NCBI RefSeq assembly: GCF_007830175.1
Contig: NZ_VLKH01000003.1
Span: 1 to 64,000, forward strand
Length of the DNA stretch: 64,000 nt
Direction of reading: 5' to 3'
From: Sedimentibacter saalensis
GTDB taxonomy: Bacteria; Bacillota; Clostridia; Tissierellales; Sedimentibacteraceae
Below the pieces are notes generated by a model. That model was not told the DNA's origin and ran no database searches. It saw only the letters and a list, made by a program, of their open reading frames with translations. Below, in pieces: positions 4,619-54,448 of the stretch (position 1 is its first letter; every line of letters starts with the position of its first letter). The position numbers and the translations under genes are program-made.

Positions 4619-6197
<1,579 letters not shown>

Positions 6198-12731: not shown

Positions 12732-13805
12732 ATGACTGAAAACGACAAGAAAAAATTCATTGTGAATGTGGCTTTTATAGTAACGGTTTACGCAGTTTTA
12801 TATTTCATTTTTGTTTACATGATTCATTGGGTTATGCCATTTTTGGTTGGTTTTTTAATTGCTCTTGCCCTGCGGCCCATAACAAGGCTTGTTAACAAGC
12901 TTGTTAACAGCACCGGCAAAGGTGTGGCAGTGTTTGTAGTGGCTATGTTTTATGCCGGAGCAGCAACTCTTCTCTGGCTAATACTGTCATTTTTATTCGC
13001 GCAGCTGACAGACATGGTCAAGGTAATGCCGGATTTATATTTTCAAAAACTTGAGCCTGTTCTTTTGGAGTTCAACGACTGGATTGTAGAGAATGCAAAG
13101 TTAATATCTCCTGATGCAGCAAGTGCAATTTCACAGGTTATAACAAATGGCATCAATTATATTTCTGATGTTATTAAAAACATATCGATTTCTGTGGTGC
13201 AGTTTGTTACAAGACTCATTTCAAACTTTCCTCTGTACCTCATAAGCGTTATTTTTACAATTGTCCTTTCAGTGTTCATAAGCGTGGAATACAACAACAT
13301 AACTGCTTTTATAAAGCGCCAGCTGCCTGATAAGTTCAACTCCACATTCACGGAGGCGAAAACCTTCCTTACAGGAACGCTGTGGAAAATGATAAAGTCC
13401 TACATGATAATATTGTTCATTACATTCATTGAACTGTTAATTGGTCTTAACATGCTGGATGTTACATATGCACTTCCATTAGCAGCAATAATTGCTGTAC
13501 TTGACATAATGCCTATTATTGGTACCGGCGGAATATTAATTCCATGGGCCATTGTAGAACTGATTCTCAATAATTACAGAATGGGCGGAGGATTGTTGAT
13601 ACTGTATGTTACGGTAACTGTTGTGAGAAACATAATAGAGCCAAGAATTGTAGGACATCAAATTGGCCTTCATCCTATCATAACAATAACTGCCATGTAT
13701 GCCGGTCTGAGACTGTTTGGATTTGCAGGATTCATAATAGCACCTGTTGTGGCAATACTTGTGAAATACCTAAACGACACAGGAAAAATTCATTTGTTCA
13801 AATAA
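12732..13805 (+). CDS. ytvI: AI-2E-family membrane protein, YtvI-like
   Basis: This 357-residue polytopic protein belongs to the AI-2E transporter/permease family and most resembles the sporulation protein YtvI of spore formers. It has two N-terminal membrane helices, a long amphipathic segment (roughly residues 85-150), then five or six more helices with the conserved LDIMPIIGTGGILIPWAI and the late block PRIVGHQIGLHPIITITAMYAGLRLFG. AGAGGCGG precedes the ATG. The precise transported substrate of YtvI is unknown. It stands alone, with a promoter upstream and a strong terminator downstream. Confidence 0.8.
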   Translation: MTENDKKKFIVNVAFIVTVYAVLYFIFVYMIHWVMPFLVGFLIALALRPITRLVNKLVNSTGKGVAVFVVAMFYAGAATLLWLILSFLFAQLTDMVKVMPDLYFQKLEPVLLEFNDWIVENAKLISPDAASAISQVITNGINYISDVIKNISISVVQFVTRLISNFPLYLISVIFTIVLSVFISVEYNNITAFIKRQLPDKFNSTFTEAKTFLTGTLWKMIKSYMIILFITFIELLIGLNMLDVTYALPLAAIIAVLDIMPIIGTGGILIPWAIVELILNNYRMGGGLLILYVTVTVVRNIIEPRIVGHQIGLHPIITITAMYAGLRLFGFAGFIIAPVVAILVKYLNDTGKIHLFK

Positions 13806-13822
13806 ATAAATATTAAAGCAAA

Positions 13823-13848
13823 AAATCCGGCAAGCCGGAATTTTTTTT
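13823..13848 (+). terminator. Terminator of the ytvI-like gene
   Basis: TCCGGC (13826-13831), an AA loop and GCCGGA (13834-13839) are followed by eight T (13841-13848). Because A-runs also precede it, it could work weakly in both directions. Confidence 0.88.
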
Positions 13849-13856
13849 GCAACAAA

Positions 13857-13878
13857 AAAGCAAGGCGAACCTTGCTTT
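13857..13878 (-). terminator. Terminator of gdhA
   Basis: On the minus strand AAGCAAGG, a 4-nt loop and CCTTGCTT are followed by T residues (13859-13854). It lies 10 bp after the gdhA stop and back to back with the ytvI terminator. Confidence 0.85.
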
Positions 13879-13887
13879 TATTTTTTA

Positions 13888-15231
13888 TTAGATTATTCCC
13901 TGAGCCATCATAGCATCTGCAACTTTTTTGAATCCAGCAAGGTTAGCTCCAGCTACCAGGTTGTATCCCAATCCAGCTTCTTCAGCTGCTGCTACAGAGT
14001 TCTTATAGATGTTTCTCATGATTTCATGAAGTTTAGCATCAACTTCTTCAAATGTCCAAGAATATCTCATTGAGTTCTGGCTCATTTCCAATGCTGATGT
14101 AGCAACTCCGCCGGCATTAACTGCTTTTGAAGGAGCAACTATCATTCCGCTTTGTTGTAAGAATGCCAATGCATCATTTGTAGTAGGCATGTTAGCAACT
14201 TCGATATAGTATTTAGATCCGCTTGCTACTATTTTCTTAGCTTCTTCCATGTTGATTTCATTTTGAGTTGCACATGGCATGTAAACATCTGCTTTTACTG
14301 CCCATGGTTTTTGACCCGGGAAGAATTCAACGCCAAACTTTTCAGCGTAATCCTGAACTTTGTCTCTTCCTGAAGATCTCATGTAAAGCATAAATTCTTC
14401 TTTTTCGCCTTTAACTCCGGCAGGATCGTAAATATATCCGTCTGGACCTGAAATAGCAACAACAGTTCCGCCTAATTGGTTAACTTTCTGAACAACTCCC
14501 CAAGCAACGTTACCGAAACCTGATACTACGAATGTCTTGCCTGCTACTTCTTCTCCGAAGTGGTTCAAAACTTCTTGTGTATAATATACAGCGCCGTATC
14601 CTGTAGCTTCAGTTCTTGCCAAACTTCCGCCAAATGGTATTCCTTTGCCTGTTAATACGCCGTTTTCGAAAGCGCCTCTGATTCTTCTGTACTGTCCGTA
14701 TAAATAACCAACTTCTCTTCCGCCAACTCCTATGTCTCCTGCAGGAACGTCAACGTCTGGTCCTATATGTCTGTAAAGTTCAGTCATGAAGGCTTGGCAG
14801 AATCTCATTACTTCTGCATCTGATTTTCCTCTTGGGTCAAAGTCAGAACCACCTTTAGCTCCGCCTATTGGAAGACCTGTGAGTGAATCTTTGAATGTTT
14901 GTTCAAAAGCCAAAAATTTCATTATACCTGAATATACTGAAGGATGGAATCTTAATCCACCTTTGTAAGGTCCTATTGCTCCGTTAAACTGAATTCTGTA
15001 TCCTCTGTTAACCTGTACTTGTCCTTTATCATCAACCCATGAAACTTTAAAAGAAATGCTTCTTTCTGGTTCAACAATTCTTTCCAACAGACCTGCTGCT
15101 TCATATTCAGGATGTTTTTCAATCATAGGCTCCAAGCTGAATAAAACTTCTTCAACTGTCTGAATAAATTCAGGTTCATTAGCGTCTCTTTTCTTAACTT
15201 GCTCAATTACTCTTTCAATATATGCATTCAT
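13888..15231 (-). CDS. gdhA: Glutamate dehydrogenase (hexameric, about 450-residue class)
   Basis: GdhA interconverts glutamate and 2-oxoglutarate plus ammonia. The 447-residue length and the motifs PYKGGLRFHPSV (substrate-binding Lys), LPIGGAKGGSDFDP (catalytic Lys) and DVPAGDIGVGGRE (catalytic Asp) match the small hexameric bacterial class, as in Clostridium symbiosum. The Rossmann loop is VSGFGNVAWG. Coenzyme preference cannot be set safely, but in amino-acid fermenters this class is often NAD-linked and catabolic. GGAGG precedes the ATG; it is monocistronic with its own promoter and terminator. Confidence 0.96.
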   Translation of the reverse strand: MNAYIERVIEQVKKRDANEPEFIQTVEEVLFSLEPMIEKHPEYEAAGLLERIVEPERSISFKVSWVDDKGQVQVNRGYRIQFNGAIGPYKGGLRFHPSVYSGIMKFLAFEQTFKDSLTGLPIGGAKGGSDFDPRGKSDAEVMRFCQAFMTELYRHIGPDVDVPAGDIGVGGREVGYLYGQYRRIRGAFENGVLTGKGIPFGGSLARTEATGYGAVYYTQEVLNHFGEEVAGKTFVVSGFGNVAWGVVQKVNQLGGTVVAISGPDGYIYDPAGVKGEKEEFMLYMRSSGRDKVQDYAEKFGVEFFPGQKPWAVKADVYMPCATQNEINMEEAKKIVASGSKYYIEVANMPTTNDALAFLQQSGMIVAPSKAVNAGGVATSALEMSQNSMRYSWTFEEVDAKLHEIMRNIYKNSVAAAEEAGLGYNLVAGANLAGFKKVADAMMAQGII

Positions 15232-44623: not shown

Positions 44624-44651
44624 ACAAAAAACACCGAACCTTCTGCCCAGC

Positions 44652-44800
44652 ATATTACAGCTCTCTCTTATAGGATTGGGAAGCATCCTATAAAAACAGT
44701 ATTACATCTCTTAAATGTAAGCCCAGGGAAAGAATCCCTTCGGCGAATCACCCTTTCAAAGCTGTGCTTTTACTCTTGATCATCGCAACCTCTGTAATAT
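44652..44800 (-). promoter_or_regulatory. Lysine riboswitch (L box)
   Basis: A perfect 9-bp P1 helix, ATATTACAG (44800-44792) and CTGTAATAT (44660-44652), encloses the conserved L-box core on the minus strand: AGAGGTTGCGATGATCAAGAGTA, GGGTGATTCGCCGAAGG, CTGGG and AGAGAGCTG. The 149-nt size and placement before dapA, with a terminator after it, match lysine-responsive OFF switches. Confidence 0.95.
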
Positions 44801-44826
44801 ACCCACGAAAATATTTAATTTTCATC

Positions 44827-44876: not shown

Positions 44877-45383
44877 TCAATCTTCGTCATATTTACGAAA
44901 TGCAACTATTTCTCCATAAATCATGACGTGATAGTCATTGTTCCTGTAGCTCATTTCATGGATATCTTTATCCAAAAGTTCCGAGTCAATAGACTGCCTG
45001 TACATAACTCTGCACTCATAACTGTCGCAGCCCTTAATGTGAGGCACACTTATTTTCTCACCTTCTGCCATCTCTAAACGGCACTCTTTAACCTTGTCAT
45101 AATTTCTTCCTGATTTTGTGCCGCAAATTTTAAGCTGCTCTTCAAATTCACCTTCCTTTGGAATGCATACTGTAAATTCATCCGAATTTTTCAACACTTC
45201 ATAGGAATATCTTGAATGCCTTACAGCAATAATCATGGACGGTTTTTTCCACATATATCCTATGTATCCCCATCCAATCTGCATTAAGTTGACGTGTTCG
45301 TTGCTTTTTGTAACTAAAAATGCCTTGCTTCTCTGCAGCCTGTTTAGAAACTCAGCTGAATTATTAAAAAAGTTATTATTCAT
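44877..45383 (-). CDS. Flavin-reductase-like (FMN-binding) protein
   Basis: The 168-residue protein matches the flavin-reductase-like split-barrel family: an N-terminal KAFLVTKSNEHVNLMQIGWGYIGYMWKKPSMIIAVRHSRYSYEVLKNSDEFTVCIP segment where FMN binds, and a C-terminal strand-rich half. Clostridial relatives act in electron transfer with ferredoxin or rubredoxin, but the partner here is unknown. It lies downstream of the flavo-iron-sulfur cluster, separated from it by a terminator. Confidence 0.8.
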   Translation of the reverse strand: MNNNFFNNSAEFLNRLQRSKAFLVTKSNEHVNLMQIGWGYIGYMWKKPSMIIAVRHSRYSYEVLKNSDEFTVCIPKEGEFEEQLKICGTKSGRNYDKVKECRLEMAEGEKISVPHIKGCDSYECRVMYRQSIDSELLDKDIHEMSYRNNDYHVMIYGEIVAFRKYDED

Positions 45384-45397
45384 ACAACCTCCTTATT

Positions 45398-45421
45398 AAG
45401 AAAGGCATCTTTTCAGATGCC
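45398..45421 (-). terminator. Terminator at the end of the flavo-iron-sulfur operon
   Basis: On the minus strand GGCATCT, GAAA and AGATGCC are followed by TTTCTT. It lies 6 bp after the stop of the [4Fe-4S] gene. Confidence 0.8.
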
Positions 45422-45426
45422 CTTTT

Positions 45427-45924
45427 TTATAGTCTTTTCATGGAAATTACATTTTCATAATGTTTTTTAGGAAAAGAAACAGCTACAAGCTTTGTAAGGT
45501 CATAGGATTTTAATCCGGTTATTTTTTCAACTTTACCTTCACATACTTCATTGCCTGTTCTGTCTACCAGCACAACCATATGGCCTGCTTCCGGCAAGGG
45601 AAGATATTCATATGGAAATGTAATCAAAGCAGTGTCTTCCCCATAGTTTATATCCATAAGGTGAATTGCTATACCGGGGCACTTTGCCACACAAATTCCG
45701 CAGCCCACACATTTTTCAAAATCTATTACAGGTAGATTTGTAATTGGATTTCCTACACTGATAGCACCCTTTGGACATGAAGTTTCACAAGGATTGCATG
45801 GTATTTGTTCTGTACATTCTATGACAGCAATATTTCCAAGATTGTAATCTTCATTTTTGGGAAAGCCCGGAGAATTTTTCAGTTCTTCTATTGAAGGAGC
45901 TCCGCATTTTTTTAAACATGTCAT
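45427..45924 (-). CDS. 2x[4Fe-4S] ferredoxin-domain subunit
   Basis: The 165-residue protein has two cluster motifs: C37-x5-C43-x2-C46-x3-C50-P and C72-x2-C75-x2-C78-x3-C82-P, followed by a C-terminal beta domain without cofactor motifs. Its start overlaps the HcnB-like flavoprotein gene by 4 bp. By position it is the electron-transfer subunit that would carry electrons from the dehydrogenase flavins to a ferredoxin pool. AAGGAG precedes the ATG. Confidence 0.85.
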   Translation of the reverse strand: MTCLKKCGAPSIEELKNSPGFPKNEDYNLGNIAVIECTEQIPCNPCETSCPKGAISVGNPITNLPVIDFEKCVGCGICVAKCPGIAIHLMDINYGEDTALITFPYEYLPLPEAGHMVVLVDRTGNEVCEGKVEKITGLKSYDLTKLVAVSFPKKHYENVISMKRL

Positions 45925-47024
45925 ACTACCAACTCCTTCCCTTTTTCCAGTATCTGATCTTTAGCTGTCCTTCTTTTTTCTCCAAATTGACCGCATCTTA
46001 ATGAATTCAGTTTATTCCATATTTCATCCATTCTTTCTTCAGCCTTTTCCTTTTCAACTAACCCCAGGTCATAGGCTACGCTTATTCCCGCAAGTCGCCC
46101 TTCTTCCATGGCTGTGCTGGCTTCTTCAATGCCTGCAACATCACCTGCCACATAGATTCCATCAACAGTTGTTCTCATGCATTTGTCGTGTACGGGAACG
46201 TAACCGCCCATGCTTCCTATATATGTGAACTCACATCCGGCCAGCCACACCAATTCAATCATTGGAGTCAATCCCACAGCCAGGCATATGGTATCAACTT
46301 CAAATATTTTTTCTGACCCTTCTACTTCTTTCCAGCTGCTGTCAAGCTGGACTATTTCTACCTTTTCCACTCTGTCTGTTCCGTAAGCTTTTTTTATAGT
46401 ATGGCTTGTGTAAAATGGCACTCCTGCTCTTGCAACTTTTGCAGTATGAACTCCATATCCACCGAGACTTGGTGCTGCTTCCACTATGCCTACAACATCT
46501 GCTCCGGCCTGCATGAGCTGATAAGACACTATTACTCCCACATTTCCTGAGCCAAGCATCAACACCTTTTGTCCCGGAAGAACTCTGTTAAGATTTATCA
46601 TTGTCTGAGCTGCTCCTGCCCCCATAACACCTGGAAGCTCCCATCCGTCAAACTGTACAGAATTTTCAAAAGCGCCTGTGGCCACTATTATTTTTTCTGC
46701 ATGAATTTCTTTGGATCTTTCTTTGTTTTCTATAATCCAGATTTTCTTGTCACTTGTAATCCCGCACACTTCTGTGTTGAGCATTACTTCTATATCCAGA
46801 CTTTTCGTATCATGTAAAAGCTCTGTTCCTATATTTATGCCACGTGTTCCTGCCTTATGTTCCCTTGAGCCAAAAAACTTGTGTATTTGTTTGAAAAGCT
46901 GCCCTCCAGGTTTATTGTTTTCGTCAATTAACAGAACCCTGGCACCTGACTTTGAAGCTTCTATTGACGCAGCAAGACCTGCAGGACCGGCTCCTATAAT
47001 TACAACATCATAATTATTTCCCAT
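45921..47024 (-). CDS. HcnB-like FAD/NAD(P)-binding dehydrogenase subunit
   Basis: The 367-residue protein starts MGNNYDVVIIGAGPAGLAAS with the first dinucleotide fold, has PGGQLFKQIHKFFGS, a second fold KVLMLGSGNVGVIVSYQL, and GIYVAGDVAGIEEASTAMEEGRLAG near the end. It is the family of HcnB, octopine/opine oxidase A and the alpha subunit of dye-linked proline or D-hydroxyproline dehydrogenases. Larger relatives end in a BFD-type [2Fe-2S] domain; here that domain is a separate gene (48207). The start is uncertain: the frame extends to 47060, and ATGs occur at 47048, 47027 and 47024; the fold begins at the last. It overlaps the [2Fe-2S] gene upstream. Confidence 0.85.
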   Translation of the reverse strand: MGNNYDVVIIGAGPAGLAASIEASKSGARVLLIDENNKPGGQLFKQIHKFFGSREHKAGTRGINIGTELLHDTKSLDIEVMLNTEVCGITSDKKIWIIENKERSKEIHAEKIIVATGAFENSVQFDGWELPGVMGAGAAQTMINLNRVLPGQKVLMLGSGNVGVIVSYQLMQAGADVVGIVEAAPSLGGYGVHTAKVARAGVPFYTSHTIKKAYGTDRVEKVEIVQLDSSWKEVEGSEKIFEVDTICLAVGLTPMIELVWLAGCEFTYIGSMGGYVPVHDKCMRTTVDGIYVAGDVAGIEEASTAMEEGRLAGISVAYDLGLVEKEKAEERMDEIWNKLNSLRCGQFGEKRRTAKDQILEKGKELVV

Positions 47025-47337
47025 CATTTTCCCAATCGCCTCTTCCATATTGAGTTTCAACCTTCATGCCGTCTCTTACTTCAGTGACGCAGGTTCTTAC
47101 ATTTGGTATTCCGTCCACAATCATTACACAGTCAGTACATCTTCCAATGCCGCAGTAGATTCCTCTGGGCTTGTTTTTTCTTTCTGTATGCCTGAATGTA
47201 TGGACACCGTTTGCAATTAATGCAGCAGCTATCATTTCACCTTTGTAGGCCGTAATTTCTTTGCCGTCAAATGTTATGGTAACAATTTCCTCTCTAATGT
47301 CCTGCCCTAATATTGGGTGTTCTGCTATTCTTGTCAT
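47014..47337 (-). CDS. HcnA-like [2Fe-2S] subunit
   Basis: The 107-residue protein is a small plant-type ferredoxin fold with cysteines C62, C67, C70 and C83 (YCGIGRCTDC...RTC). Such HcnA/gamma subunits always accompany HcnB-like and DadA-like flavoproteins in multisubunit amino-acid dehydrogenases. It begins 9 bp after the DapA-like gene and overlaps the HcnB-like gene. Confidence 0.88.
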   Translation of the reverse strand: MTRIAEHPILGQDIREEIVTITFDGKEITAYKGEMIAAALIANGVHTFRHTERKNKPRGIYCGIGRCTDCVMIVDGIPNVRTCVTEVRDGMKVETQYGRGDWENDGK

Positions 47338-47346
47338 AGTCCACCT

Positions 47347-48210
47347 CTACAGTACTGCAAGACATTCTTTTACTACCTTTGATACTTCAGGCGTAGGTTC
47401 CGTAAGAGGAAGTCTGTATCCTCCAACATTAAATCCCAAAATGTTCAGGGCATGCTTAACAGGTATGGGACTTGTTGTTACAAACAATCCATCAAATAAA
47501 TTTGTAAGCTCCAGGTTAATTTTTGCTGCCTTCTTCATGTCGGAATTTTCAAATGCGTCTATCATTTCTCCCATTTTTACTCCTGCAACATTTGAAGCAA
47601 CACTTACAATGCCATTCCCTCCAACTGAAAGACATGGCAGCGTCAATATGTCATCACCGCTGTACACCAGAAAATCCTCAGGTGTTTCATTTATCATTCT
47701 TGTAAACTGAGCCATATCACCGCTTGCTTCTTTGATTCCGGCGATATTTTTAATTTCAGCCAACTTTTTCACTGTCTTTACACTTATATTAACTCCTGTT
47801 CTTCCAGGCACATTATAAATAATTATAGGCAAATCAGTACTTTCTGCCACTGCCTTAAAATGTGCGTACAATGATTCCTGATTTGGTTTGTTGTAATATG
47901 GTGTTATTACCAACAGTCCGTCAACATTCAGATCCTTTATATTATTGATATTATCAATTGTTTTCTTTGTATTATTAGTTCCTACCCCAGCTATGACAGG
48001 AATGCTCACATTTTTCTTTATTTCAGAAAGAAGTCTGTATACTTCCTCACTTGTCAATGTAGGTGATTCCCCTGTGGTTCCATTTATAACCAATGCAGAA
48101 GATCTTTCGCCCTCCAGTTTTTTTGCTAACCTTACGGCCTGATCATAATCCACATTTAAGTCTTTATCAAATGGTGTTACCATTGCTGTTATTAATCTTC
48201 CTAAATTCAT
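47347..48210 (-). CDS. DapA-family pyruvate-dependent lyase/deaminase, second copy
   Basis: The 287-residue TIM-barrel protein keeps the Schiff-base Lys160 (GIKEASGD), Tyr132 and Arg137 (YNVPGRTG) and a canonical GTTGESPT motif at 44-51, so it could be a second dihydrodipicolinate synthase. Its position inside a dehydrogenase operon, joined to the BFD gene by a 4-bp ATGA overlap and 9 bp from the [2Fe-2S] gene, argues for a catabolic role. DapA-family deaminases of pyrroline-4-hydroxy-2-carboxylate occur in hydroxyproline operons. Which activity it has cannot be settled from motifs. Confidence 0.8.
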   Translation of the reverse strand: MNLGRLITAMVTPFDKDLNVDYDQAVRLAKKLEGERSSALVINGTTGESPTLTSEEVYRLLSEIKKNVSIPVIAGVGTNNTKKTIDNINNIKDLNVDGLLVITPYYNKPNQESLYAHFKAVAESTDLPIIIYNVPGRTGVNISVKTVKKLAEIKNIAGIKEASGDMAQFTRMINETPEDFLVYSGDDILTLPCLSVGGNGIVSVASNVAGVKMGEMIDAFENSDMKKAAKINLELTNLFDGLFVTTSPIPVKHALNILGFNVGGYRLPLTEPTPEVSKVVKECLAVL

Positions 48211-48473
48211 TTTACGTCCTCCTCTTCCAAAACATGCATTTTTACCGGTCTCACCGGCGCCCTGTAACTTGAGGTTCTTACATCTTCAACCTTAATATTT
48301 AATTCATTTGCAAGTATTTTTTCTACGGTCCTTCTGCAAGTTCTGCCCTGGCATAGACCCATACCGGCACGGGTGAATTTTTTTATTTCGTCAACTGTTG
48401 TTGCACCATCTTTTATTGCCTTTATTATTTCATCCTCGGTAATTTCTTCACACCTGCATATAATTTTGCTCAT
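48207..48473 (-). CDS. BFD-like [2Fe-2S] protein
   Basis: The 88-residue protein carries the bacterioferritin-associated-ferredoxin fold with C6-x-C8 and C41-x4-C46 (ICRCEEIT...GLCQGRTCR). In many relatives this domain is fused to the C-terminus of the HcnB-like flavoprotein; here it is free-standing, as the gamma-type subunit in some archaeal proline dehydrogenases. It lies 12 bp after the regulator gene. Confidence 0.87.
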   Translation of the reverse strand: MSKIICRCEEITEDEIIKAIKDGATTVDEIKKFTRAGMGLCQGRTCRRTVEKILANELNIKVEDVRTSSYRAPVRPVKMHVLEEEDVK

Positions 48474-48485
48474 ATATTCACTTCC

Positions 48486-49232
48486 TTAGTGATAAATATT
48501 GTTTTTGCTGTTTCCGTATATGTTCCAATACGTCAATACATCCTCCATAAGGTTATCCATGTGTTCTGACATCAGTCTTTCTGCTTCTTCTTCATCATTG
48601 TTTTTAATTGCATCATATATTTTTTTATGAGAAGCATTATATGGTGAATTTATTTGTCTTCTAAGGTTCTCAAAAATATTTGATTGCTGCTTGAACGTGG
48701 ATACAATATTGTACAATGATTCTAGAATTGAATTTCTTGAAGCCTTTGCAATGGTTCTATGGAATTCAATGTCTTCATCAGCAATACTTTCACCGCTCTT
48801 TGATTTTTGTTCCTGCCTTTGAATCACTTCTTCAAGCTTATCAAGTTCATCCTGCGTAATATATCTTGTGGCAAGTCTTGTAGTTTCTTTTTCGATGGCA
48901 CGCCTTGCCTGTATTATCATTACGAAGTTTTCAAGTATTTCGGTTGAAATTATTTCATTGAGCTTATCCTGATGAAAATTTATTATTTTAATTGTCTCAG
49001 CTCTTTTTATAGCCAGCTTTCCTTCAGAAGTTATTACTCTTCCGATATTTTTTTGTTTTTCAAGGAATTCACTGTTTTCAAGTTTTGATAAAATCCTGCC
49101 CACAGTAGCTGTGCTTACATCTACATTTTCTTCTCTTAATTTGTTCTCAACAGCCCAAGTTCCTATTGGCTTGTTTGCTTCTTCTATAATTTTTAAAATT
49201 TTTATTTCAATATCATCTAGGATTTGCCTCAT
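48486..49232 (-). CDS. FCD-domain transcriptional regulator with atypical N-terminal winged helix
   Basis: The C-terminal half of this 248-residue protein (about residues 90-235) is an FCD ligand domain: VMIIQARRAIEKETTRLATRYIT, then DEDIEFHRTIAKASRN and SPYNASHKKIYDAI...AERLMSEHM. The N-terminus (DIEIKILKIIEEANKPIGTWAVENKLREENVDVSTATVGRILSKLENSEFLEKQ, then RVITSEGK) does not look like the usual GntR helix-turn-helix but like the NrpR/RNase R-type winged helix. It is likely the local regulator. The ATG at 49232 follows AAGGGTGG; the earlier TTG is weaker. Confidence 0.8.
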   Translation of the reverse strand: MRQILDDIEIKILKIIEEANKPIGTWAVENKLREENVDVSTATVGRILSKLENSEFLEKQKNIGRVITSEGKLAIKRAETIKIINFHQDKLNEIISTEILENFVMIIQARRAIEKETTRLATRYITQDELDKLEEVIQRQEQKSKSGESIADEDIEFHRTIAKASRNSILESLYNIVSTFKQQSNIFENLRRQINSPYNASHKKIYDAIKNNDEEEAERLMSEHMDNLMEDVLTYWNIYGNSKNNIYH

Positions 49233-49320
49233 AATACCACCCTTTTTACAAAATATTCTTGTCAATATTATCTCACACAGGATTATTCATTACAATGGCA
49301 AATCCTAAATTTTACATATT

Positions 49321-50754
49321 TTATGCTTCCATTTGCTTATTGGTTTTTTGTGTAGCAAGAGATACTACAACAAGCAAAATTGCTGAAACTGCCAATGCTA
49401 TAAGCACCTTGTTGCTTCCAAGGGCATTAATCTGACTTAGCACAGCACCGGCTACTATGCTTACTCTTGCTCCCCATGGAGTAACCTTGCTGTTCTTCTT
49501 TCCTTTTTCATGAGCATCCGGTTTTTCCTTCCACAACAAACCTATTACCAGAAGAGGTACAAGTCCTGAACCTGCCATTGAATATGCTCTTGAGAACAAA
49601 CTTAATATTGAACTTGCATATATTGCACCTAGTGCAGCAAATACTCCGATTACTGCAGTGAGCCACTTGGCATATTTAACAAGCTGTTGATCTGTTGTTT
49701 CAGGTTTAAATGGTTTAATTAAATCATTAACTATCAATATTGAAGCTGAGTTAAGATTTGAGTCCGCTGAAGACATACCGGCAGCTAAAACAAGGGCAAA
49801 CACCATTCCTGCCACTGCAACCGGAATTCTGTTCATCATAAACCATGCCATTGCATCTCCAGGTGCCAGGTCTTGTTTGATTGTGAAAATTATCATACCA
49901 ACCAGTGCTGTTAGCATTACAGCAAGTATTGCTATAATACCGCTGTAGAGCATACCGTTTTTAGCAGTCTTTGTATCTGTAGCTGAAAAACATCTCTGCC
50001 AGTAAATTTGTGCCACTAAAATTCCGATGGTACCTGTTACAATCATATTTATTATCTTCATAGGATCAGATATTCCGAACTCCCACATATCTGCTCTTCC
50101 CAGTGCCTGAAGTCTCACTCCGATTTCTCCAACTGAGAAGTTAACTTCCTTGAATGCGTAAACATAAAATATTACTCCAAATATTAAAACAAGTACACCC
50201 TGCAGCAAATCTGTCCAAACAACCGAGTAAATTCCTCCTAATGTTGTATAAATTATAAACACAGCTGAAAACAACAATATTACCGGAAGAGGATCAACTC
50301 CTGTTACAACACTGAAGATATTTCCAAGGGCCTTGCCTTGTCCGCCAACCCATGCAATCATAATGGATGAAGCAAGAACGCCTGCCATTGCTCTTGTTAC
50401 TTTATCTTTTGTAATTAAGTCGTCCAAAAGTTCAGGAAATGTATTGTATGTAAATCTCCCTGCAAATCCTGCAATGAACAAAGCAAAAATTATCTTTGAT
50501 CCCTGCTCTCCAAGAATAAATGCCATCCATGATAAACCTGTTGAATATCCGCTTCCTGCATGGCCTACAAAGTTACCTACACCCATTATTGTTGCAAACT
50601 GAGTGAAGAATATTAGGTACATTGGAAATGTTTTCCCGCCTATTGCATAGTTTGAAAAGCTCAATTCGGCCTTATCTTTTACTTTTAAAGATATACCCAA
50701 GAAAGCGCCGCACATTAATACAGTAATAATCCATAAAGTTGTTCCTAAAGTCAT
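49321..50754 (-). CDS. Sodium:solute symporter (SSS family)
   Basis: The 477-residue protein has about 13 membrane helices and SSS features: FSNYAIGGKTFPMYLIFFTQFATIMGVGNFVGHAG at the sodium-site end of helix 1, TLGGIYSVVWTDLLQGVLV in the middle and LAAGMSSADSNLNSASILIVNDL. The family imports proline, other amino acids, sugars or carboxylates with Na+. The flanking dehydrogenase genes suggest an amino- or imino-acid substrate. AGGAGG precedes the start. Confidence 0.88.
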   Translation of the reverse strand: MTLGTTLWIITVLMCGAFLGISLKVKDKAELSFSNYAIGGKTFPMYLIFFTQFATIMGVGNFVGHAGSGYSTGLSWMAFILGEQGSKIIFALFIAGFAGRFTYNTFPELLDDLITKDKVTRAMAGVLASSIMIAWVGGQGKALGNIFSVVTGVDPLPVILLFSAVFIIYTTLGGIYSVVWTDLLQGVLVLIFGVIFYVYAFKEVNFSVGEIGVRLQALGRADMWEFGISDPMKIINMIVTGTIGILVAQIYWQRCFSATDTKTAKNGMLYSGIIAILAVMLTALVGMIIFTIKQDLAPGDAMAWFMMNRIPVAVAGMVFALVLAAGMSSADSNLNSASILIVNDLIKPFKPETTDQQLVKYAKWLTAVIGVFAALGAIYASSILSLFSRAYSMAGSGLVPLLVIGLLWKEKPDAHEKGKKNSKVTPWGARVSIVAGAVLSQINALGSNKVLIALAVSAILLVVVSLATQKTNKQMEA

Positions 50755-50781
50755 ATATTACCTCCTCATTATTTTATTTTT

Positions 50782-50822
50782 AAAGATTTAATTAAACTGT
50801 GCACTGATTTAATTAAATCTTT
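50782..50822 (-). other. Long AT-rich hairpin between the DadA-like and symporter genes
   Basis: A perfect 15-bp inverted repeat, AAAGATTTAATTAAA (50782-50796) and its complement (50808-50822), with an 11-nt loop, spans the DadA-like stop codon. On the message it precedes the symporter ribosome-binding site. Being AT-only apart from one pair it is a weak terminator at best, but could limit read-through or guide processing. Confidence 0.6.
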
Positions 50823-51969
50823 CAAAACTTAGTTCTTTGATATCCAGCAATGTTTTTTTACCGCATATCATTTGAGAAATTAATTTTCCTGTTACGGGAG
50901 CCATTGCTATTCCGTCCCCTTCATGACCGGCAGCTATGTAAAAACCTTCATTGCCCTTTACTTCTGATATGATAGGTTTTCCGTCAACACATGCAGGCCT
51001 GAATCCAGCAAAGGTTCTTATAATGTGTATGTTCTTAAGTATGGGAAAGAAATCAACAGCCTGATTTACCAATATCTTTATTGCTTCGTAATCAGTATTT
51101 TTATCATAATTTCCTAATTGACGGGTACTCCCAATGAGGTAGTTTCCGTCGCTTGTCTGTGACATGGAAAGCCCTATGCCCAGCTCTTTATGTATGTCAC
51201 TTGTATTTACCAGTTCTGGATTAAGCTTTGAAATTATATATTCAGCACTCCATATATTTTCTCTTCCAAGCTGTGGTATATTTTCTGTTACTGCAATCTG
51301 TCCTTTTTTTGAAGTTATAGGAATATCTATCCCAATTAGTTTCCCTACATCAGCCGCCCATGCTCCGGAAGCATTTATAACATTTTCCGTTTCAATTTCA
51401 GCACCTGAACTTAATTTTAACTGCCAGAAGCTGCTTTTTTTAGTTATTTCAACAGCCTCAGTTCCCTTGTATACATCCATTCCGGCGTTAATTGATTTAC
51501 TCATAAAAGCTCTCATGGCAAACAACGGATTTACCTGTGAATCTTCTGTTCCGTGAGTTGAAGCCACAATATCGTCTTTAACAAAAGGATGGTACTTTTT
51601 TACTGTTTTTTTATCTATGAGCTCTATATCAAGTCCATAATCTTTTTGCTTTGATACATAGTCTTCCATAAAGGACAAATGCTCAAACTTATCTATGAGA
51701 ATCATTCCACCTCTGTTGTGAAACCCTATATCACAATTTAAGTTATTATTAAGATCCTTGTACAGTTTCAAACTTTCTATAGCCAGCTCAAGATTTTTGC
51801 CTGGTTTTTTAGATTGAAGCAATATCATATCATCGCAAGAACCAGAAGCTCCGCTGCCTATTTGATTTTTTTCAACTAATGCTACTTTCTTATTTTCAAG
51901 AGTAAGATAATACGCGCAAGATAAACCTATAATTCCGCCGCCAAGAATAACAACGTCATATTTTTTCAT
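50809..51969 (-). CDS. DadA-like FAD-dependent amino/imino-acid dehydrogenase
   Basis: The 386-residue flavoprotein of the DAO family starts KKYDVVILGGGIIGLSCAYYLT and ends with a typical GFRPACVDGKPIISEVKGNEGFYIAAGHEGDGIAMAPVTGKLI. Relatives are glycine, sarcosine, D-amino-acid and hydroxyproline dehydrogenases, and the beta/HcnC subunit of multisubunit enzymes. Since HcnA-, HcnB- and BFD-like subunits lie in the same operon, it probably forms the catalytic subunit. It is the first gene of the operon, with a clear promoter. Confidence 0.88.
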   Translation of the reverse strand: MKKYDVVILGGGIIGLSCAYYLTLENKKVALVEKNQIGSGASGSCDDMILLQSKKPGKNLELAIESLKLYKDLNNNLNCDIGFHNRGGMILIDKFEHLSFMEDYVSKQKDYGLDIELIDKKTVKKYHPFVKDDIVASTHGTEDSQVNPLFAMRAFMSKSINAGMDVYKGTEAVEITKKSSFWQLKLSSGAEIETENVINASGAWAADVGKLIGIDIPITSKKGQIAVTENIPQLGRENIWSAEYIISKLNPELVNTSDIHKELGIGLSMSQTSDGNYLIGSTRQLGNYDKNTDYEAIKILVNQAVDFFPILKNIHIIRTFAGFRPACVDGKPIISEVKGNEGFYIAAGHEGDGIAMAPVTGKLISQMICGKKTLLDIKELSFERFN

Positions 51970-51993
51970 TCCGTCCTCCCTGTATCGTTACTT

Positions 51994-52009
51994 CTCATCA
52001 TGTGATGAG
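51994..52009. promoter_or_regulatory. Palindrome in the DadA-like leader, possible operator
   Basis: CTCATCA and TGATGAG, separated by TG, form a 16-bp inverted repeat between the -10 box and the DadA-like start codon, a place where a bound regulator would block transcription. The FCD protein encoded in the operon is the natural candidate. Confidence 0.5.
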
Positions 52010-52021
52010 TGCTTTTGATAT

Positions 52022-52051
52022 ATTATATAAACATATCCCATCTCATGTCAA
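52022..52051 (-). promoter_or_regulatory. Promoter of the flavo-iron-sulfur operon
   Basis: On the minus strand TTGACA (52051-52046), an 18-bp spacer and TATAAT (52027-52022) lie 52 bp before the DadA-like ATG. Confidence 0.7.
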
Positions 52052-52059
52052 TACTTTTT

Positions 52060-52357
52060 TAAAAACGTTATCCTGAAATATTGAGGATAATATTACTTTT
52101 TATAAATATAAATGTTGTTTATTCATTTTATTAAGAACGCCCATTTAATACACATTGAAAAACCGTCCGTGAAAAACAAGCGCAGCTTTTTAATTAAATC
52201 ATTTTGACCAGCTGTAATTTTTATGTTTTATAAATTATATGTTCTTTTGAAATATTTATCACATACAAGTTTTAGATAATTTCCATTATTTCGATTAATT
52301 ATTCTAAAAAATTTTTTTGTATTTTTTAAAATCATCAAATATGCGTAATATAATTTA
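52060..52357. other. Gene-free divergent region between the two catabolic units
   Basis: No convincing gene is seen. A 7-bp hairpin TTATCCT/AGGATAA with a 9-nt loop (52068-52090) lies just upstream of the minus-strand promoter and could be a regulatory site. The rest is AT-rich with long A/T tracts before the aldehyde oxidoreductase promoter. Confidence 0.4.
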
Positions 52358-52386
52358 TTGACATTACTGTTAATTTTATATATACT
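52358..52386 (+). promoter_or_regulatory. Promoter of the aldehyde:ferredoxin oxidoreductase gene
   Basis: TTGACA (52358-52363), a 17-bp spacer and TATACT (52381-52386) lie 44 bp before the start codon. Confidence 0.75.
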
Positions 52387-52430
52387 GTTTTTGTCACTAC
52401 TCATCTTTTGATTAGCAAATAGGAGGAGAT

Positions 52431-54302
52431 ATGATCGGAAGGTTTTTAGAAGTAAATTTAACAAACGAGACTGCCAGGGAATTTTTTATTGATAAAAGTA
52501 TTTATAAAAAATTCATAGGAGGAAAAGGCATTGGAGCGTACCTTTTGTTTAAATACTTAAATCCGGGTACAAGCGGCCTTTCTCCAGACAATCCACTTAT
52601 ATTCTTAACTGGTCCCCTTACAGGTTCAGGGTTTCCCACATCCGGCAGAATGGTTGTGGTGAGCAAATCGCCTTTAACAAACACTTATGCTGATTCTCAT
52701 GCCGGTGGATACTTTTCTTTCGAAATGAAACGTGCAGGCTTTGATGGAATCATAATAATAGGAAAGGCACAAGATCACAAATATTTGTGGATAAACGACG
52801 GGAAAATTGAATTTAGGGATGTCAGCCACATCTGGGGTGATAACGTTTCCGAAACTGTTGAAAAACTTAGAAATGAAACTGAAAAGAATGCAAGAGTTGC
52901 CTGCATCGGTCCTGCAGGAGAAAACCAGTCGCTCATCTCTTCAATAATGCTTGACAAGGACAGCGACAAAACAAGAGCAGGAATAGCAGGGCGAACCGGA
53001 CTTGGGGCCGTAATGGGTGCTAAAAATCTTAAGGCTCTTGTTATTAAAGGCAGCGGCAAGTTAGATTTTGAAAATATTGAACTTTTTAATGCAGGAAAAA
53101 ATAATACAAGAAAAGTTGTTGAAATGACTGAATTCATGAAGGTGAGAAACAAGTACGGAAGTGCTAATTTAGTAGGACCAATGAATAAGGGAGGATTTCT
53201 TCCAACAAATAACTTTCAGAAAAGCTTCATTGAAAACGGCGAAGACCTGTACTGTGAAAGCATGAATAACCATAAAAAAAGAAATGCAACTTGTTTCGGA
53301 TGTCCTATTAACTGCGGCCAGATAATTGAAACAAAAAAACACGAAGAGGTCAAAATTGAATATGAGAGCATTGCACTATTAGGAAGCAACAACGGTGTAA
53401 AAAATTTCTCGGATGTGGCAGAAGCATGTTTATTGTGCAATGAACTTGGCCTTGATTCCATGTCTGCAGGTGTTACTGCAGGTTTTGCCATGGAATGCAA
53501 AGAGAAAGGGTTGCTTAATAATGTTCCGGAATTCGGAGATTCAAAAGGGCAGCTTGAGCTTCTAAAAGACATGGCATTCAGAAGAAATGCAGGGAAACTT
53601 CTTTCAGACGGAGTAAAAAGAGCAGCTGAAAAAATAGGAAACGGCAGCGAAAAATTTGCCATACATGTTAAAGGACTGGAAATGGCAGGATATGAACCAA
53701 GAACTTCCTGGGGCATGGCGCTTGCCTACGCAACGTCAGACAGAGGAGCCTGCCATCAAAGGTGCTGGACAGTAAACGCTGAAAGGTCCGGTGTTTTAGA
53801 AATGTTCTCCTTTGATGACAAGGCTAATTTTGTAATAGAAGGGCAAAATGAAAGAGCAGCTGCCTTTTCAGCACTTGTGTGTGATTTTCTTCCATTTAAT
53901 CTAAAGGATTTGTGCACAGCCTTTGAAGGTGTTACAGGCTTGAGTTTTACAGAAAGCGATTATTATGAAGCCGGCGAAAGAATCTGGAACTTAATCAGGC
54001 TTTTTAACATGAGAGAAGGTTTTGAAAGAAAAGATGATACTCTTCCTGACAGAATGTTTGAAGAAAAAGTTAAACTTCCCTCAGGAATTTACACTAAAAA
54101 TGAAGTATCACTTAACAGGACTGACTTTCAAACCGCTCTCAGCAAATATTATAAATTAAGAGGATGGTCAGAAGAAGGTTATCCAACTTACGAAAAACTT
54201 GAAGAACTGGGTCTCTCAGATTATGTAAGAGGTGATAAAGCATGTACATATTTGAAGAATTTATATCAGAAAAATATCCCATCAGTCTCATTGAATATAT
54301 AA
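52431..54302 (+). CDS. aor: Aldehyde:ferredoxin oxidoreductase (tungsten type)
   Basis: AOR-family enzymes oxidise aldehydes to acids with reduction of ferredoxin, using a tungsten-bispyranopterin and a [4Fe-4S] cluster. The 623-residue length, N-terminal KKFIGGKGIGAYLL and the cluster ligands C288-x2-C291-x3-C295 (CFGCPINC) with C484 match the archetype, as do GLDSMSAG (residues 340-346) and AGRTGLGAVMGAKNLKAL. AGGAGGAG precedes the ATG. The gene runs opposite to the dehydrogenase operon and overlaps a MoaD-like gene. Its substrate could be an amino-acid-derived semialdehyde or a general aldehyde; context favours the former but does not prove it. Confidence 0.93.
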   Translation: MIGRFLEVNLTNETAREFFIDKSIYKKFIGGKGIGAYLLFKYLNPGTSGLSPDNPLIFLTGPLTGSGFPTSGRMVVVSKSPLTNTYADSHAGGYFSFEMKRAGFDGIIIIGKAQDHKYLWINDGKIEFRDVSHIWGDNVSETVEKLRNETEKNARVACIGPAGENQSLISSIMLDKDSDKTRAGIAGRTGLGAVMGAKNLKALVIKGSGKLDFENIELFNAGKNNTRKVVEMTEFMKVRNKYGSANLVGPMNKGGFLPTNNFQKSFIENGEDLYCESMNNHKKRNATCFGCPINCGQIIETKKHEEVKIEYESIALLGSNNGVKNFSDVAEACLLCNELGLDSMSAGVTAGFAMECKEKGLLNNVPEFGDSKGQLELLKDMAFRRNAGKLLSDGVKRAAEKIGNGSEKFAIHVKGLEMAGYEPRTSWGMALAYATSDRGACHQRCWTVNAERSGVLEMFSFDDKANFVIEGQNERAAAFSALVCDFLPFNLKDLCTAFEGVTGLSFTESDYYEAGERIWNLIRLFNMREGFERKDDTLPDRMFEEKVKLPSGIYTKNEVSLNRTDFQTALSKYYKLRGWSEEGYPTYEKLEELGLSDYVRGDKACTYLKNLYQKNIPSVSLNI

Positions 54303-54448
54303 ACACAAAAAAAGAATCGGTTCCTTATTTCAGCAGCCAATTTGTTATTTCAGTAAATAACATTCTGGTTGCAAAAATCGAATATGATTCCACCATTTTG
54401 AAATATAATGATAAAATAACGGTTTTGCCTCTGCTTGGCGGAGGCTAA
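54242..54448 (+). CDS. MoaD/ThiS-like small sulfur carrier
   Basis: The 68-residue product overlaps the end of the aldehyde oxidoreductase gene by 61 bp in another frame, with AGAGGTGAT correctly spaced before its ATG inside that gene. It has the beta-grasp look (FVISVNNILVAKIEYDSTILKYNDKITVLPLLGGG) and the C-terminal Gly-Gly tail needed for thiocarboxylate formation; here there are three glycines. Position suggests supply of dithiolene sulfur for the enzyme's pyranopterin. A terminator hairpin covers its final codons. Confidence 0.75.
   Translation: MYIFEEFISEKYPISLIEYINTKKESVPYFSSQFVISVNNILVAKIEYDSTILKYNDKITVLPLLGGG

Follow-up and report, generated by a model that had tools for sequence, protein, structure and literature searches.

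A Sedimentibacter operon that may run the dipicolinate/lysine branch backwards, with a tungsten aldehyde oxidoreductase in place of aspartokinase

Why is a tungsten aldehyde:ferredoxin oxidoreductase (AOR) encoded back to back with a DapA-like lyase, a symporter and the subunits of a flavo-Fe-S dehydrogenase? The window analyzed here, a stretch of 64,000 nucleotides from Sedimentibacter saalensis, raises this question. The first-pass annotation had proposed an amino or imino acid oxidation system modeled on hydroxyproline breakdown, with AOR taking the resulting semialdehyde. A catabolic-looking unit that includes AOR, which probably oxidizes the lyase's semialdehyde, survives from that proposal; the proline/hydroxyproline chemistry does not. 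We suggest that the operon could serve regulated anaerobic catabolism by operating the dipicolinate/lysine branch in reverse, a reading to which we give just under an even chance.

Gene content and a shared operator

Eight minus-strand genes, from the DadA-like gene to the 4Fe-4S gene, are spaced by -4 to 55 bases, and AOR and a MoaD/ThiS-like ORF diverge from them across a shared region of 461 bp. The ORFs and their Pfam families agree with this arrangement as the first-pass annotation had described it. The features are:

44877-45383, minus strand: flavin-reductase-like protein at the operon end, an uncertain member (PF01613)
45427-45924, minus strand: 2x[4Fe-4S] ferredoxin-like subunit (PF13237/PF12838)
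45921-47060, minus strand: HcnB-like flavoprotein subunit (PF07992, TIGR01372)
47014-47337, minus strand: HcnA-like [2Fe-2S] subunit, Fer2_4 (PF13510)
47347-48210, minus strand: DapA2, DHDPS-type lyase (TIGR00674, DapA; 329.5 bits, cut-off 206)
48207-48473, minus strand: BFD-like [2Fe-2S] protein (PF04324, PF17806)
48486-49265, minus strand: FCD-domain regulator, candidate operator binder (PF07729 and PF08461)
49321-50754, minus strand: Na+/solute symporter (SSS), candidate substrate importer (PF00474)
50809-51969, minus strand: DadA-like FAD subunit of the DAO family, putative catalytic subunit of the flavo-Fe-S complex (PF01266, 214 bits)
51994-52009, no strand: operator with perfect arms, CTCATCA-TG-TGATGAG, between the dadA promoter and the dadA start
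52022-52051, minus strand: dadA promoter-like site, 12/12 to the sigma-70 consensus
52358-52386, plus strand: AOR promoter-like site, 11/12 to the sigma-70 consensus
52400-52415, no strand: second operator copy with 2 mismatches, between the AOR promoter and the AOR start
52431-54302, plus strand: AOR (PF01314, 394.5 bits; PF02730, 251.7 bits)
54242-54448, plus strand: MoaD/ThiS-like ORF, overlapping the AOR 3' end (PF02597, E 3.9e-6)

That the minus-strand set is more than a chance assembly is shown by its recurrence, slightly altered, in 11 genomes of the same genus and beyond the phylum; the L039, L045 and L046 copies are truncated where the contig stops. Carriers include the culturable Anaerovirgula, Geosporobacter and Anaerosolibacter. 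The FCD regulator is found in most loci. Copies of the SSS symporter are 54-87% identical in the clusters that have one, and the seven Spirochaete loci with DapA2 have TAXI-TRAP genes and no SSS. Among 97 other loci scanned, the flavin-reductase-like gene has matches beside the cluster only in L056 and L089. The HcnB and HcnA ORFs overlap by 47 bases with their ends as called; the true HcnB start, whose position is uncertain, probably lies inside this overlap.

The predicted complex resembles the heterooligomeric dye-linked dehydrogenases, which according to an excerpt of PMC4575208 include the opine dehydrogenase OdhABC, D-hydroxyproline dehydrogenase, the HCN synthase HcnABC and archaeal L-proline dehydrogenase. 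As in that family, a DAO-family catalytic subunit, an HcnB-like flavoprotein and a small HcnA-like [2Fe-2S] subunit are encoded together. The AF2 model of the DadA-like protein (pLDDT 90.7) has glycine oxidase 4ysh as its nearest solved fold, with L-proline dehydrogenase 1y56_B at rank 6 and iminodiacetate oxidase 6pxs also among the neighbors, and solved relatives of the HcnB-like protein (query 45921-47009) are the sarcosine oxidase alpha subunit 2gag_A and 1y56_A. In contrast to the dye-linked dehydrogenases, the window's complex has an extra 2x[4Fe-4S] subunit (two cysteine motifs are visible by eye in the translation) and a separate BFD protein, and it is linked to a DHDPS-type lyase and aspartate-semialdehyde enzymes.

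A consensus scan found nine promoter-like sites in the region, against 4.6 expected, and also listed the palindrome at 51994-52009 as terminator-like on the plus strand. This palindrome has no other match with one mismatch or fewer in the 3.83-Mb assembly. The operator is present at both divergent promoters in the window and in L056, L057, L058, L061, L064 and L092, and it precedes Asd2 or Ask2 in 11 of 11 same-genus relatives. In L062, AOR is separate from dadA; the operator stands before AOR, and no good copy was found before dadA. There was also no good operator at the tested places in L100, L103, L073 and L113, nor in L077. We infer that the FCD protein would bind the shared palindrome and so keep both divergent promoters repressed as long as substrate is absent.

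AOR or aspartokinase at the semialdehyde step

The genome contains 10 AOR-family genes, so the presence of AOR alone says little; what links it to the cluster is its position, its clade and the operator. The protein has both the N and the C domain of the AFOR family and matches the solved AOR 9mqx at 396 bits. The six cluster AORs form a single clade (support 100/100 in a tree of 20 rows). The MoaD-like ORF proposed as private to AOR is not a conserved partner: no such ORF was seen beside the five other AORs of the clade (by eye, ORFs of at least 45 aa within 400 bases).

Most relatives have something else in place of AOR. The same genes in the 11 same-genus relatives, distant Firmicutes and Spirochaetes are usually accompanied by a second, ACT-less aspartokinase (Ask), mostly together with a second aspartate-semialdehyde dehydrogenase (Asd), whereas an AOR of the one clade takes that position in the window and in four further lyase-carrying lineages. 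Among 31 named loci with DadA and DapA2, 21 have aspartokinase (15 with Asd), four have AOR, six have neither of these aldehyde-oxidizing options and none has both; the window adds a fifth AOR case to this tally. Without the nine same-genus loci, the counts are 12, four, six and none (n = 22). In L039, the closest relative, Ask2 and Asd2 lie between DadA and an aminotransferase, the gap that holds AOR and the MoaD-like ORF in the window. The first-pass annotation had named a regular absence of AOR from related operons as an argument against its link to the operon. AOR is indeed missing beside DadA in 11 of 12 same-genus loci, but all 11 have Ask there (five also with Asd), which explains the absence and leaves the link unrefuted. 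An ALDH-family gene after HcnB in one Desulfobulbaceae locus (L131) is a possible third option; a scan of the other 96 loci gave no match to it.

Gene copy numbers fit this replacement, though not cleanly. Counting one Asd family (TIGR01296), six of six AOR-type genomes have one copy and 10 of 13 aspartokinase-type genomes have two or three; a single copy also occurs in G008 and G015, which have Ask2 and no Asd2 at the locus, and in the Spirochaete G426. Pfam detected no ACT domain in eight of eight cluster aspartokinases examined, and did detect one in the LysC of the window genome. One of the eight is from L113, which has Ask and Asd plus an unrelated AOR (30% identical) 2.4 kb away. Deltaproteobacterial and Spirochaete loci have, close to these genes, a DapB fused to aspartokinase-type ACT domains (Pfam; L131, L097, L121), a fusion consistent with a supply of HTPA that escapes the usual feedback control.

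Based on the operator at both promoters, the cluster-specific AOR clade and the presence of AOR in place of Ask and Asd, we conclude that AOR belongs to the operon's system. Even if the substrate is different from the one that we propose, the exchange of Asd and Ask for AOR at a site that is conserved and marked by the operator clearly illustrates how one metabolic step can be solved by two different chemistries.

The lyase points to the aldehyde. T45, T46, Y106, Y132, R137 and K160 of DapA2 do not vary in alignments of 11 and of 13 rows; the catalytic residues of dihydrodipicolinate synthase (DHDPS) are T44, T45, Y107, Y133, R138 and K161 in E. coli numbering. The best 60 of 109 solved relatives are all named DHDPS. 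DapA2 falls in a clade of 29 rows apart from biosynthetic DapA (support 100/99), with the cluster DapA proteins of two Desulfobulbaceae loci outside it, and a lysine riboswitch heads the unit that encodes a further DapA of the window genome. From its sequence, DapA2 probably cleaves HTPA to pyruvate and aspartate semialdehyde, if the catabolic direction is right. Aspartate semialdehyde is more likely than 2-oxoglutarate semialdehyde, given the DapA score, the kept DHDPS residues, the solved relatives and the lack of PF05544 in the genome. It is probably also the substrate of AOR, as the replacement and the operator suggest.

Dipicolinate as the candidate substrate, and its rivals

In the pathway that we propose, the symporter would bring in a dicarboxylate, for which spore-derived dipicolinate (pyridine-2,6-dicarboxylate) is the likeliest candidate. 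The DadA-HcnA-HcnB-BFD-2x[4Fe-4S] complex would put two electrons on the C=N bond to give dihydrodipicolinate, which would hydrate to HTPA. DAO-family enzymes normally oxidize amines, so the electrons would flow in the reverse of the family's usual direction, and we know of no DAO-family enzyme that reduces a pyridine. Judging by its sequence and gene set, DapA2 would then split HTPA by a retro-aldol reaction into pyruvate and L-aspartate semialdehyde, and AOR, placed here by replacement, clade and operator, would oxidize the semialdehyde to aspartate and reduce ferredoxin, which could pay for the reduction of dipicolinate. In relatives, Asd and the ACT-less aspartokinase would work in reverse, yielding NAD(P)H and ATP. 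Aspartate would be processed further, perhaps by the neighboring aminotransferase; aspartase-like matches in the window genome reach 63 bits at most. We consider the lower half of this pathway, DapA2 and AOR in the catabolic direction, likely, and give dipicolinate itself just short of an even chance of being the substrate.

To our knowledge, dipicolinate is the only abundant, nameable compound two electrons from the HTPA node. Its fermentative degradation was reportedly described by Seyfried and Schink in 1990. The balances that we computed are dipicolinate + 3 H2O = pyruvate + aspartate and dipicolinate + 4 H2O = acetate + propionate + 2 CO2 + NH3. The predicted products agree with those of dipicolinate fermentation in an excerpt of PMC9826295 (2022), according to which dipicolinate accounts for 5-15% of the dry weight of spores and is set free when they germinate. 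The same excerpt cites the phenotype only and states that 'an exact enzymatic pathway ... has not been elucidated'. For anaerobic dipicolinate breakdown, these genes outline a specific route that can be tested. A widespread anaerobic pathway for spore dipicolinate, with HcnABC-type pyridine reduction, opening by reversed DHDPS and a yield of ATP (Asd and Ask) or reduced ferredoxin (AOR), has in our estimate somewhat less than an even chance of being correct. If true, Ask and Asd would be used in reverse for energy, a defined AOR clade would have a function, and there would be a reason for DapB enzymes with aspartokinase-type ACT domains.

The main rival is catabolism of diaminopimelate (DAP) from peptidoglycan. 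The complex or Ddh would oxidize meso-DAP to tetrahydrodipicolinate and a reversed DapB would make HTPA, followed by DapA2 and AOR or Asd/Ask. DadA would then be an amine oxidase, and the racemase-like genes, which suggest a chiral substrate and so count against dipicolinate, would be accounted for; these occur in five of the 31 loci (adjoining DadA in four of seven Spirochaete loci, and inside the operon in L113), identified by PF01177 for L073 and by similarity for the others. DapB-type genes are near some clusters, and Ddh (TIGR01921, 471 bits for L049) comes after the ferredoxin gene in L049 and L077 and is near six other same-genus clusters. However, the operator lies between Ddh and Ask2 in L041, L042, L044, L045, L046 and L048 (a weak site, 15/20, in L048), which places Ddh outside the operator-led unit in these six loci. 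The DapB-Ddh pair of L045 and L046 is behind a lysine riboswitch and appears to serve biosynthesis, the catalytic motif is altered in the DapB copy that follows the L049 operon, and no DapB was seen in 25 of the 31 loci, some of them cut by contig ends. Reversal of DapB with NAD(P)+ should also be strongly uphill. Overall, we think that DAP is unlikely to be the substrate.

Slightly less likely still is the oxidation of some other imino acid, or of a secondary amine resembling an opine (such as a 4-hydroxylated DAP or an amine of the metallophore type), straight to HTPA or aspartate semialdehyde. We know of no abundant natural compound of this kind. Relatives in the family use opines, D-hydroxyproline and L-proline (excerpt of PMC4575208), an iminodiacetate oxidase is among the fold neighbors, and the racemase-like genes again suggest chirality, but DapA2 would be superfluous if the semialdehyde were set free directly.

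It is improbable that the genes work in the biosynthetic direction, from aspartate through the semialdehyde to HTPA, with the complex oxidizing dihydrodipicolinate to dipicolinate. The intermediates and enzymes are identical, the spoVF-asd-dapG-dapA operon of B. subtilis is a model for such an arrangement, and spore formers are among the cluster carriers. However, the clusters have importers (SSS, or TRAP in the Spirochaetes, for which we know of no sporulation) and a substrate-type regulator, AOR would be forced to reduce aspartate without ATP activation, and no lysine riboswitch is ahead of the window's operon. In addition, near-full-length dpaA matches lie elsewhere in five of 17 genomes (G000, G003, G008, G014 and G418), with scores of 174-288 bits that stay under the cut-off of 319.65.

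A hydroxyproline or proline system, with a pyrroline-hydroxycarboxylate deaminase releasing 2-oxoglutarate semialdehyde, is very improbable: its pathway architecture is paralleled by the gene families, but the lyase is DHDPS-type by NCBIfam score and PDB rank, the alternative partners at other loci are Ask and Asd, and the lack of proline racemase or hydroxyproline epimerase, noted earlier for the window, extends to the whole genome (G000, 0 matches to the Pro_racemase family PF05544).

Relation to known systems

The bacterial D-hydroxyproline pathway consists of a dehydrogenase, a DapA-family deaminase and a semialdehyde dehydrogenase, and the window has the same order of flavo-dehydrogenase, DapA-family lyase and semialdehyde oxidation. 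In contrast to that pathway, the window genome has no epimerase, the lyase is DHDPS-type, and the semialdehyde is probably aspartate semialdehyde, oxidized by AOR or by Asd and Ask. The intermediates and three homologous enzymes are shared with lysine and spore dipicolinate biosynthesis (Ask, Asd, DapA; DpaAB). Unlike the biosynthetic pathways, the cluster has a separate DapA clade, an ACT-less aspartokinase, an importer, an FCD-type operator and AOR as an alternative, and its pathway is proposed to run backwards.

In archaea, GAPOR, a tungsten- and ferredoxin-linked enzyme, replaces a phosphorylating dehydrogenase and a kinase (GAPDH and PGK). AOR similarly stands in place of a dehydrogenase and kinase pair, although at the aspartate semialdehyde/aspartyl phosphate node.

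In favor of dipicolinate, L109, L110 and L134 each have a DpaA-like gene at a distance of 7-8 kb downstream from a DadA homologue, with importer genes ahead of it, and weaker DpaA-like matches adjoin the BFD gene in L120 and L130. These proteins score below curated cut-offs and are in clusters without DapA.

The cluster and the adjoining lysine unit

The ORF listing, Pfam and curated family models place in the window every cluster gene that the first-pass annotation had named. DadA, HcnA, HcnB, BFD and a 2x[4Fe-4S] protein (Fer) would form the proposed flavo-Fe-S complex. The genome is 3.83 Mb in 23 contigs, 99% complete, with 6.5% contamination.

Features of the cluster and its neighbour
minus strand, in gene order: DadA, SSS symporter, FCD regulator, BFD, DapA2 (DHDPS-type lyase), HcnA, HcnB, 2x[4Fe-4S] protein, flavin-reductase-like gene
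divergent from this unit: AOR (tungsten aldehyde:ferredoxin oxidoreductase) and a ThiS/MoaD-like ORF
44650-44802, minus strand: lysine riboswitch (RF00168, 75.6 bits), ahead of DapA1-DapB-DapH-LysC

A biosynthetic unit, DapA1-DapB-DapH-LysC, adjoins the cluster. Because this unit is led by the riboswitch and lies beside the DapA2 cluster, the two DapA genes belong to two kinds of context, and the riboswitch marks the boundary between them. Its position also indicates that the listed DapA1 ORF (to 44686) begins too far upstream.

The hydroxyproline- or proline-type oxidation proposed earlier is not supported: the genome has no PF05544 match, and the lyase is of the DHDPS type. The predicted DadA model (pLDDT 90.7) matches glycine oxidase and the L-proline dehydrogenase chain 1y56_B in a fold comparison, and a passage of PMC4575208 places HCN synthase in this superfamily as a relative of the dehydrogenases for opines, D-hydroxyproline and, in archaea, L-proline. 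The predicted fold and these relatives point to redox chemistry at a C-N bond, not to a particular substrate. A plasmid search with DadA (E <= 1e-60) gave no match. Sedimentibacter-type genomes also carry a paralogous HcnA-HcnB-2x[4Fe-4S]-BFD-DadA set, in the window genome at 6818-10136 of L055 (G000:C5:26000-44000) and elsewhere in L050-L054. Most of these sets precede what by eye is a peptidase-like gene of the M24/Xaa-Pro type; they may encode a proline-type dehydrogenase used in fermenting peptides.

AOR and aspartokinase-Asd genes beside DadA

DadA at least 48% identical was found in 12 of the 25 same-genus genomes searched, the window's own included. AOR adjoins DadA at none of the 11 other loci. 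All 11 have an aspartokinase gene immediately upstream of DadA instead, and in five of them (L039, L040, L043, L047 and L049) a gene for aspartate-semialdehyde dehydrogenase (Asd) adjoins it; NCBIfam confirmed two of each enzyme. DapA2 is visible in nine, the contigs of L039 and L045 ending before reaching it. In L047, the end of a distant AOR (31% identical) lies about 3 kb past the ferredoxin gene. In the closest relative (G003, locus L039; DadA 77% identical), the second aspartokinase and Asd (Ask2 and Asd2) lie between DadA and an aminotransferase gene, the one that comes after AOR in the window. Given these common flanks, AOR with the MoaD-like gene and Ask2 with Asd2 occupy the same gap.

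The best 80 of at least 231 DadA relatives in named genomes were examined, so the counts are no census. DadA and DapA2 occur together in 31 of these best 80 loci: 21 have a short aspartokinase (15 with Asd), four a window-type AOR (L056 from Anaerovirgula, L060, L062 and L092), six neither and none both. With the window, the AOR cases number five. Isolates that carry the cluster include Anaerovirgula multivorans, with AOR, and Geosporobacter ferrireducens and Anaerosolibacter carboniphilus, with Asd and aspartokinase. Nine same-genus contigs (L040-L044 and L046-L049), recognized by their length and genes, recur in the scan as L067-L070, L072, L078, L079, L083 and L090 and were tallied only as the latter; without them, the split among the remaining 22 is 12 aspartokinase, four AOR, six neither and none both. 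L100, which has an AOR of the same clade and the symporter and lacks DapA2, was left out of the 31, and AORs that are fragmentary or distant (L079, L103 and L113) were excluded from the AOR count. L113 counts against the alternation, for it combines a complete Asd-Ask-DapA-SSS-HcnA-HcnB-Fer-BFD-DadA set with another kind of AOR 2.4 kb away (13536-15194; 30% identical), downstream of which are two genes that are MoeA-like by eye.

A tree of the six cluster AORs and 14 others, seven of the latter from the window genome, groups the six in a single clade (support 100/100); two of the genome's 10 AORs are absent from the tree. Apart from the window's own, no AOR among 391 genomes sampled from the class was more than 42% identical (matches at E <= 1e-120). 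The alternation fits the genome-wide copy number of one Asd family, TIGR01296: all six AOR-type genomes have one copy, and G003, G006, G013, G014, G022, G422, G423, G424, G425 and G427 have two or three, with G008, G015 and G426 as single-copy exceptions. The idea that AOR is a chance neighbour, from a genome with 10 AOR genes, was rejected on the clade, the operator (below) and the Asd copy number. The first-pass reading of AOR is partly right: it is tied to the cluster, but not as a constant neighbour of DadA in the genus. The "private MoaD" is rejected as a defining part.

In L131 (Desulfobulbaceae), an ALDH-family gene follows DapA-DadA-HcnB and is a possible third way of oxidizing the aldehyde; it had no match at the other loci scanned. 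After the AOR-type cluster of Anaerovirgula, a molybdenum/tungsten cofactor riboswitch (L056:12793-12912) precedes two MoeA-like genes, the first assigned by Pfam and the second by eye.

Promoters and a putative operator

The dadA-AOR intergenic region contains promoter matches of 12/12 for dadA and 11/12 for AOR, among nine promoter-like sites in the scan (4.6 expected). A palindrome lies at each of these two promoters.

Palindromes in the dadA-AOR intergenic region
51994-52009: palindrome 1, perfect arms, just downstream of the dadA -10 box; also terminator-like on the plus strand
52400-52415: palindrome 2, two mismatches, just downstream of the AOR -10 box

Two such matches at the same tolerance also arose in 7 of 100 shuffles, so the window palindromes alone are weak evidence, and the strength of the case comes from the comparison of relatives. 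A search allowing at most one mismatch found the pattern a single time in the window genome. In G003, G006, G013, G417, G419 and G420 the one match is at the cluster; G422, G423, G424 and G428 each have two there, and G418 has none. There are four single-mismatch stray matches across G422, G423 and G428, and a reversed control pattern had no match in any of the 12 genomes. L056, L057, L058, L061, L064 and L092 have sites flanking both promoters. Each of the 11 same-genus loci has an operator ahead of Asd2 or Ask2, scoring 15-20 of 20; among 2000 shuffled windows of 320 bases, five reached 15 and none 17.

Other loci vary. L062 has an operator (2057-2072) ahead of AOR (start 2113) and no good one before dadA (13 of 20). 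In L060, a 15-of-20 site with altered spacing precedes dadA; AOR, which at this locus comes immediately after the ferredoxin gene, has none ahead of it. No good operator turned up at the positions examined in L100, L103, L073 and L113 (10-12 of 20), nor in L077, a locus truncated within Asd. Wherever the operator occurs, AOR thus comes under the same control as the dehydrogenase operon, presumably through the FCD regulator. Operator-like palindromes also turned up in two Spirochaete loci, L075:6837-6858 (16 of 20) and L084:6858-6879 (17 of 20), in a whole-locus scan run without a matched null.

Direction of flow and candidate substrates

DapA2 scores 329.5 bits against the curated DapA model, and the DHDPS catalytic residues are kept in every aligned member. 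Solved relatives are DHDPS in 60 of 60 matches listed (best 60 of 109). The cluster DapA2 proteins form one 29-row clade separate from biosynthetic DapA (support 100/99); outside it fall one Bathyarchaeal row, whose label comes from a weak match, and the DapA of two Desulfobulbaceae clusters. Pfam found no ACT domain in the eight cluster aspartokinases examined, and found one in the window's LysC. From these features, together with the importer, the substrate-type regulator and the AOR alternative, we infer the direction of flow and the substrate of each enzyme: they point to catabolism of HTPA, the product of DapA in the lysine route, to pyruvate and aspartate semialdehyde, and on to aspartate. 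The gene content and the operator, for their part, are direct observations. Aspartase was rejected as a universal next step, since just four of 17 genomes had matches above 450 bits, none of which passed the curated cut-off; G420 has, in addition, two aspartase-like fragments. Literature searches of open-licence PubMed Central papers listed no report of such gene sets. Our best reading, to which we give just short of an even chance, is a catabolic operon running the lysine branch in reverse, with interchangeable aldehyde-oxidizing ends and dipicolinate as the leading candidate substrate.

No DapB was seen in 25 of the 31 DadA+DapA2 loci (best 80 of at least 231 DadA relatives), so the flavo-Fe-S complex should itself supply HTPA or dihydrodipicolinate. 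To our knowledge, dipicolinate is the only stable, abundant compound two electrons away from these. Computed balances make dipicolinate to pyruvate plus aspartate redox-neutral, and dipicolinate to acetate, propionate, 2 CO2 and NH3 exact. However, DAO-family enzymes usually oxidize, which counts against reduction of dipicolinate. So do racemase-like genes in 5 of the 31 loci (again from the best 80 of at least 231), which in turn raise the standing of diaminopimelate (DAP). Such a gene adjoins DadA in four of seven Spirochaete loci with DapA2 and is present in many DapA-less relatives; in L113 it lies (5443-6129) inside an Asd-Ask-DapA2-SSS-Hcn-DadA operon and is 52% identical to the PF01177 protein of L073. 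A passage of PMC9826295, citing Seyfried and Schink 1990, gives acetate, propionate, CO2 and NH3 as shown products of dipicolinate in coculture, and describes the exact enzymatic pathway of the fermentation as not elucidated.

DpaA-like proteins and DapB-ACT fusions
L109:18950-19744, L110:18345-19130, L134:18422-19264: DpaA/SpoVFA-like proteins (NF006162, E 2e-18 to 2e-23, below cut-off)
L131:2939-4174, L097:13399-14643, L121:18-881: DapB fused to aspartokinase-type ACT domains (by Pfam)
L085, L093, L096: the same fusion (by full-length alignment only)

The three DpaA-like genes lie 7-8 kb downstream of DadA/HcnB genes, in clusters without DapA, behind an apparent branched-chain-type ABC importer, and weaker matches adjoin the BFD gene in two Oceanobacillus loci. 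These neighbours lend weak support to dipicolinate as substrate. The fusions occur near TAXI-TRAP/DadA genes in Desulfobulbaceae (Deltaproteobacteria) and Spirochaetes, and are suggestive of feedback having moved onto DapB because HTPA comes from outside.

DAP itself is an unlikely substrate, although it is kept alive by Ddh genes located after the ferredoxin gene, in the same orientation, in L049 (with a DapB of altered catalytic motif) and L077 (Ddh alone). In six same-genus clusters (L041, L042, L044, L045, L046 and L048), Ddh is on the far side of the operator, and in L045 and L046 a lysine riboswitch leads the DapB-Ddh pair, which thus looks biosynthetic. In these six loci Ddh was rejected as part of the catabolic unit, the operator scan and riboswitches placing it outside. 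The second DapB of L049 (2486-3154), after the catabolic operon, has ERYHNKKKAVISGT in place of the catalytic motif ERHHxKKxDxPSGT. That the cluster instead makes dipicolinate is disfavoured, since near-full-length dpaA matches, all below the curated cut-off, lie elsewhere in 5 of 17 genomes (G000, G003, G008, G014 and G418), so that spore dipicolinate there probably does not require the cluster.
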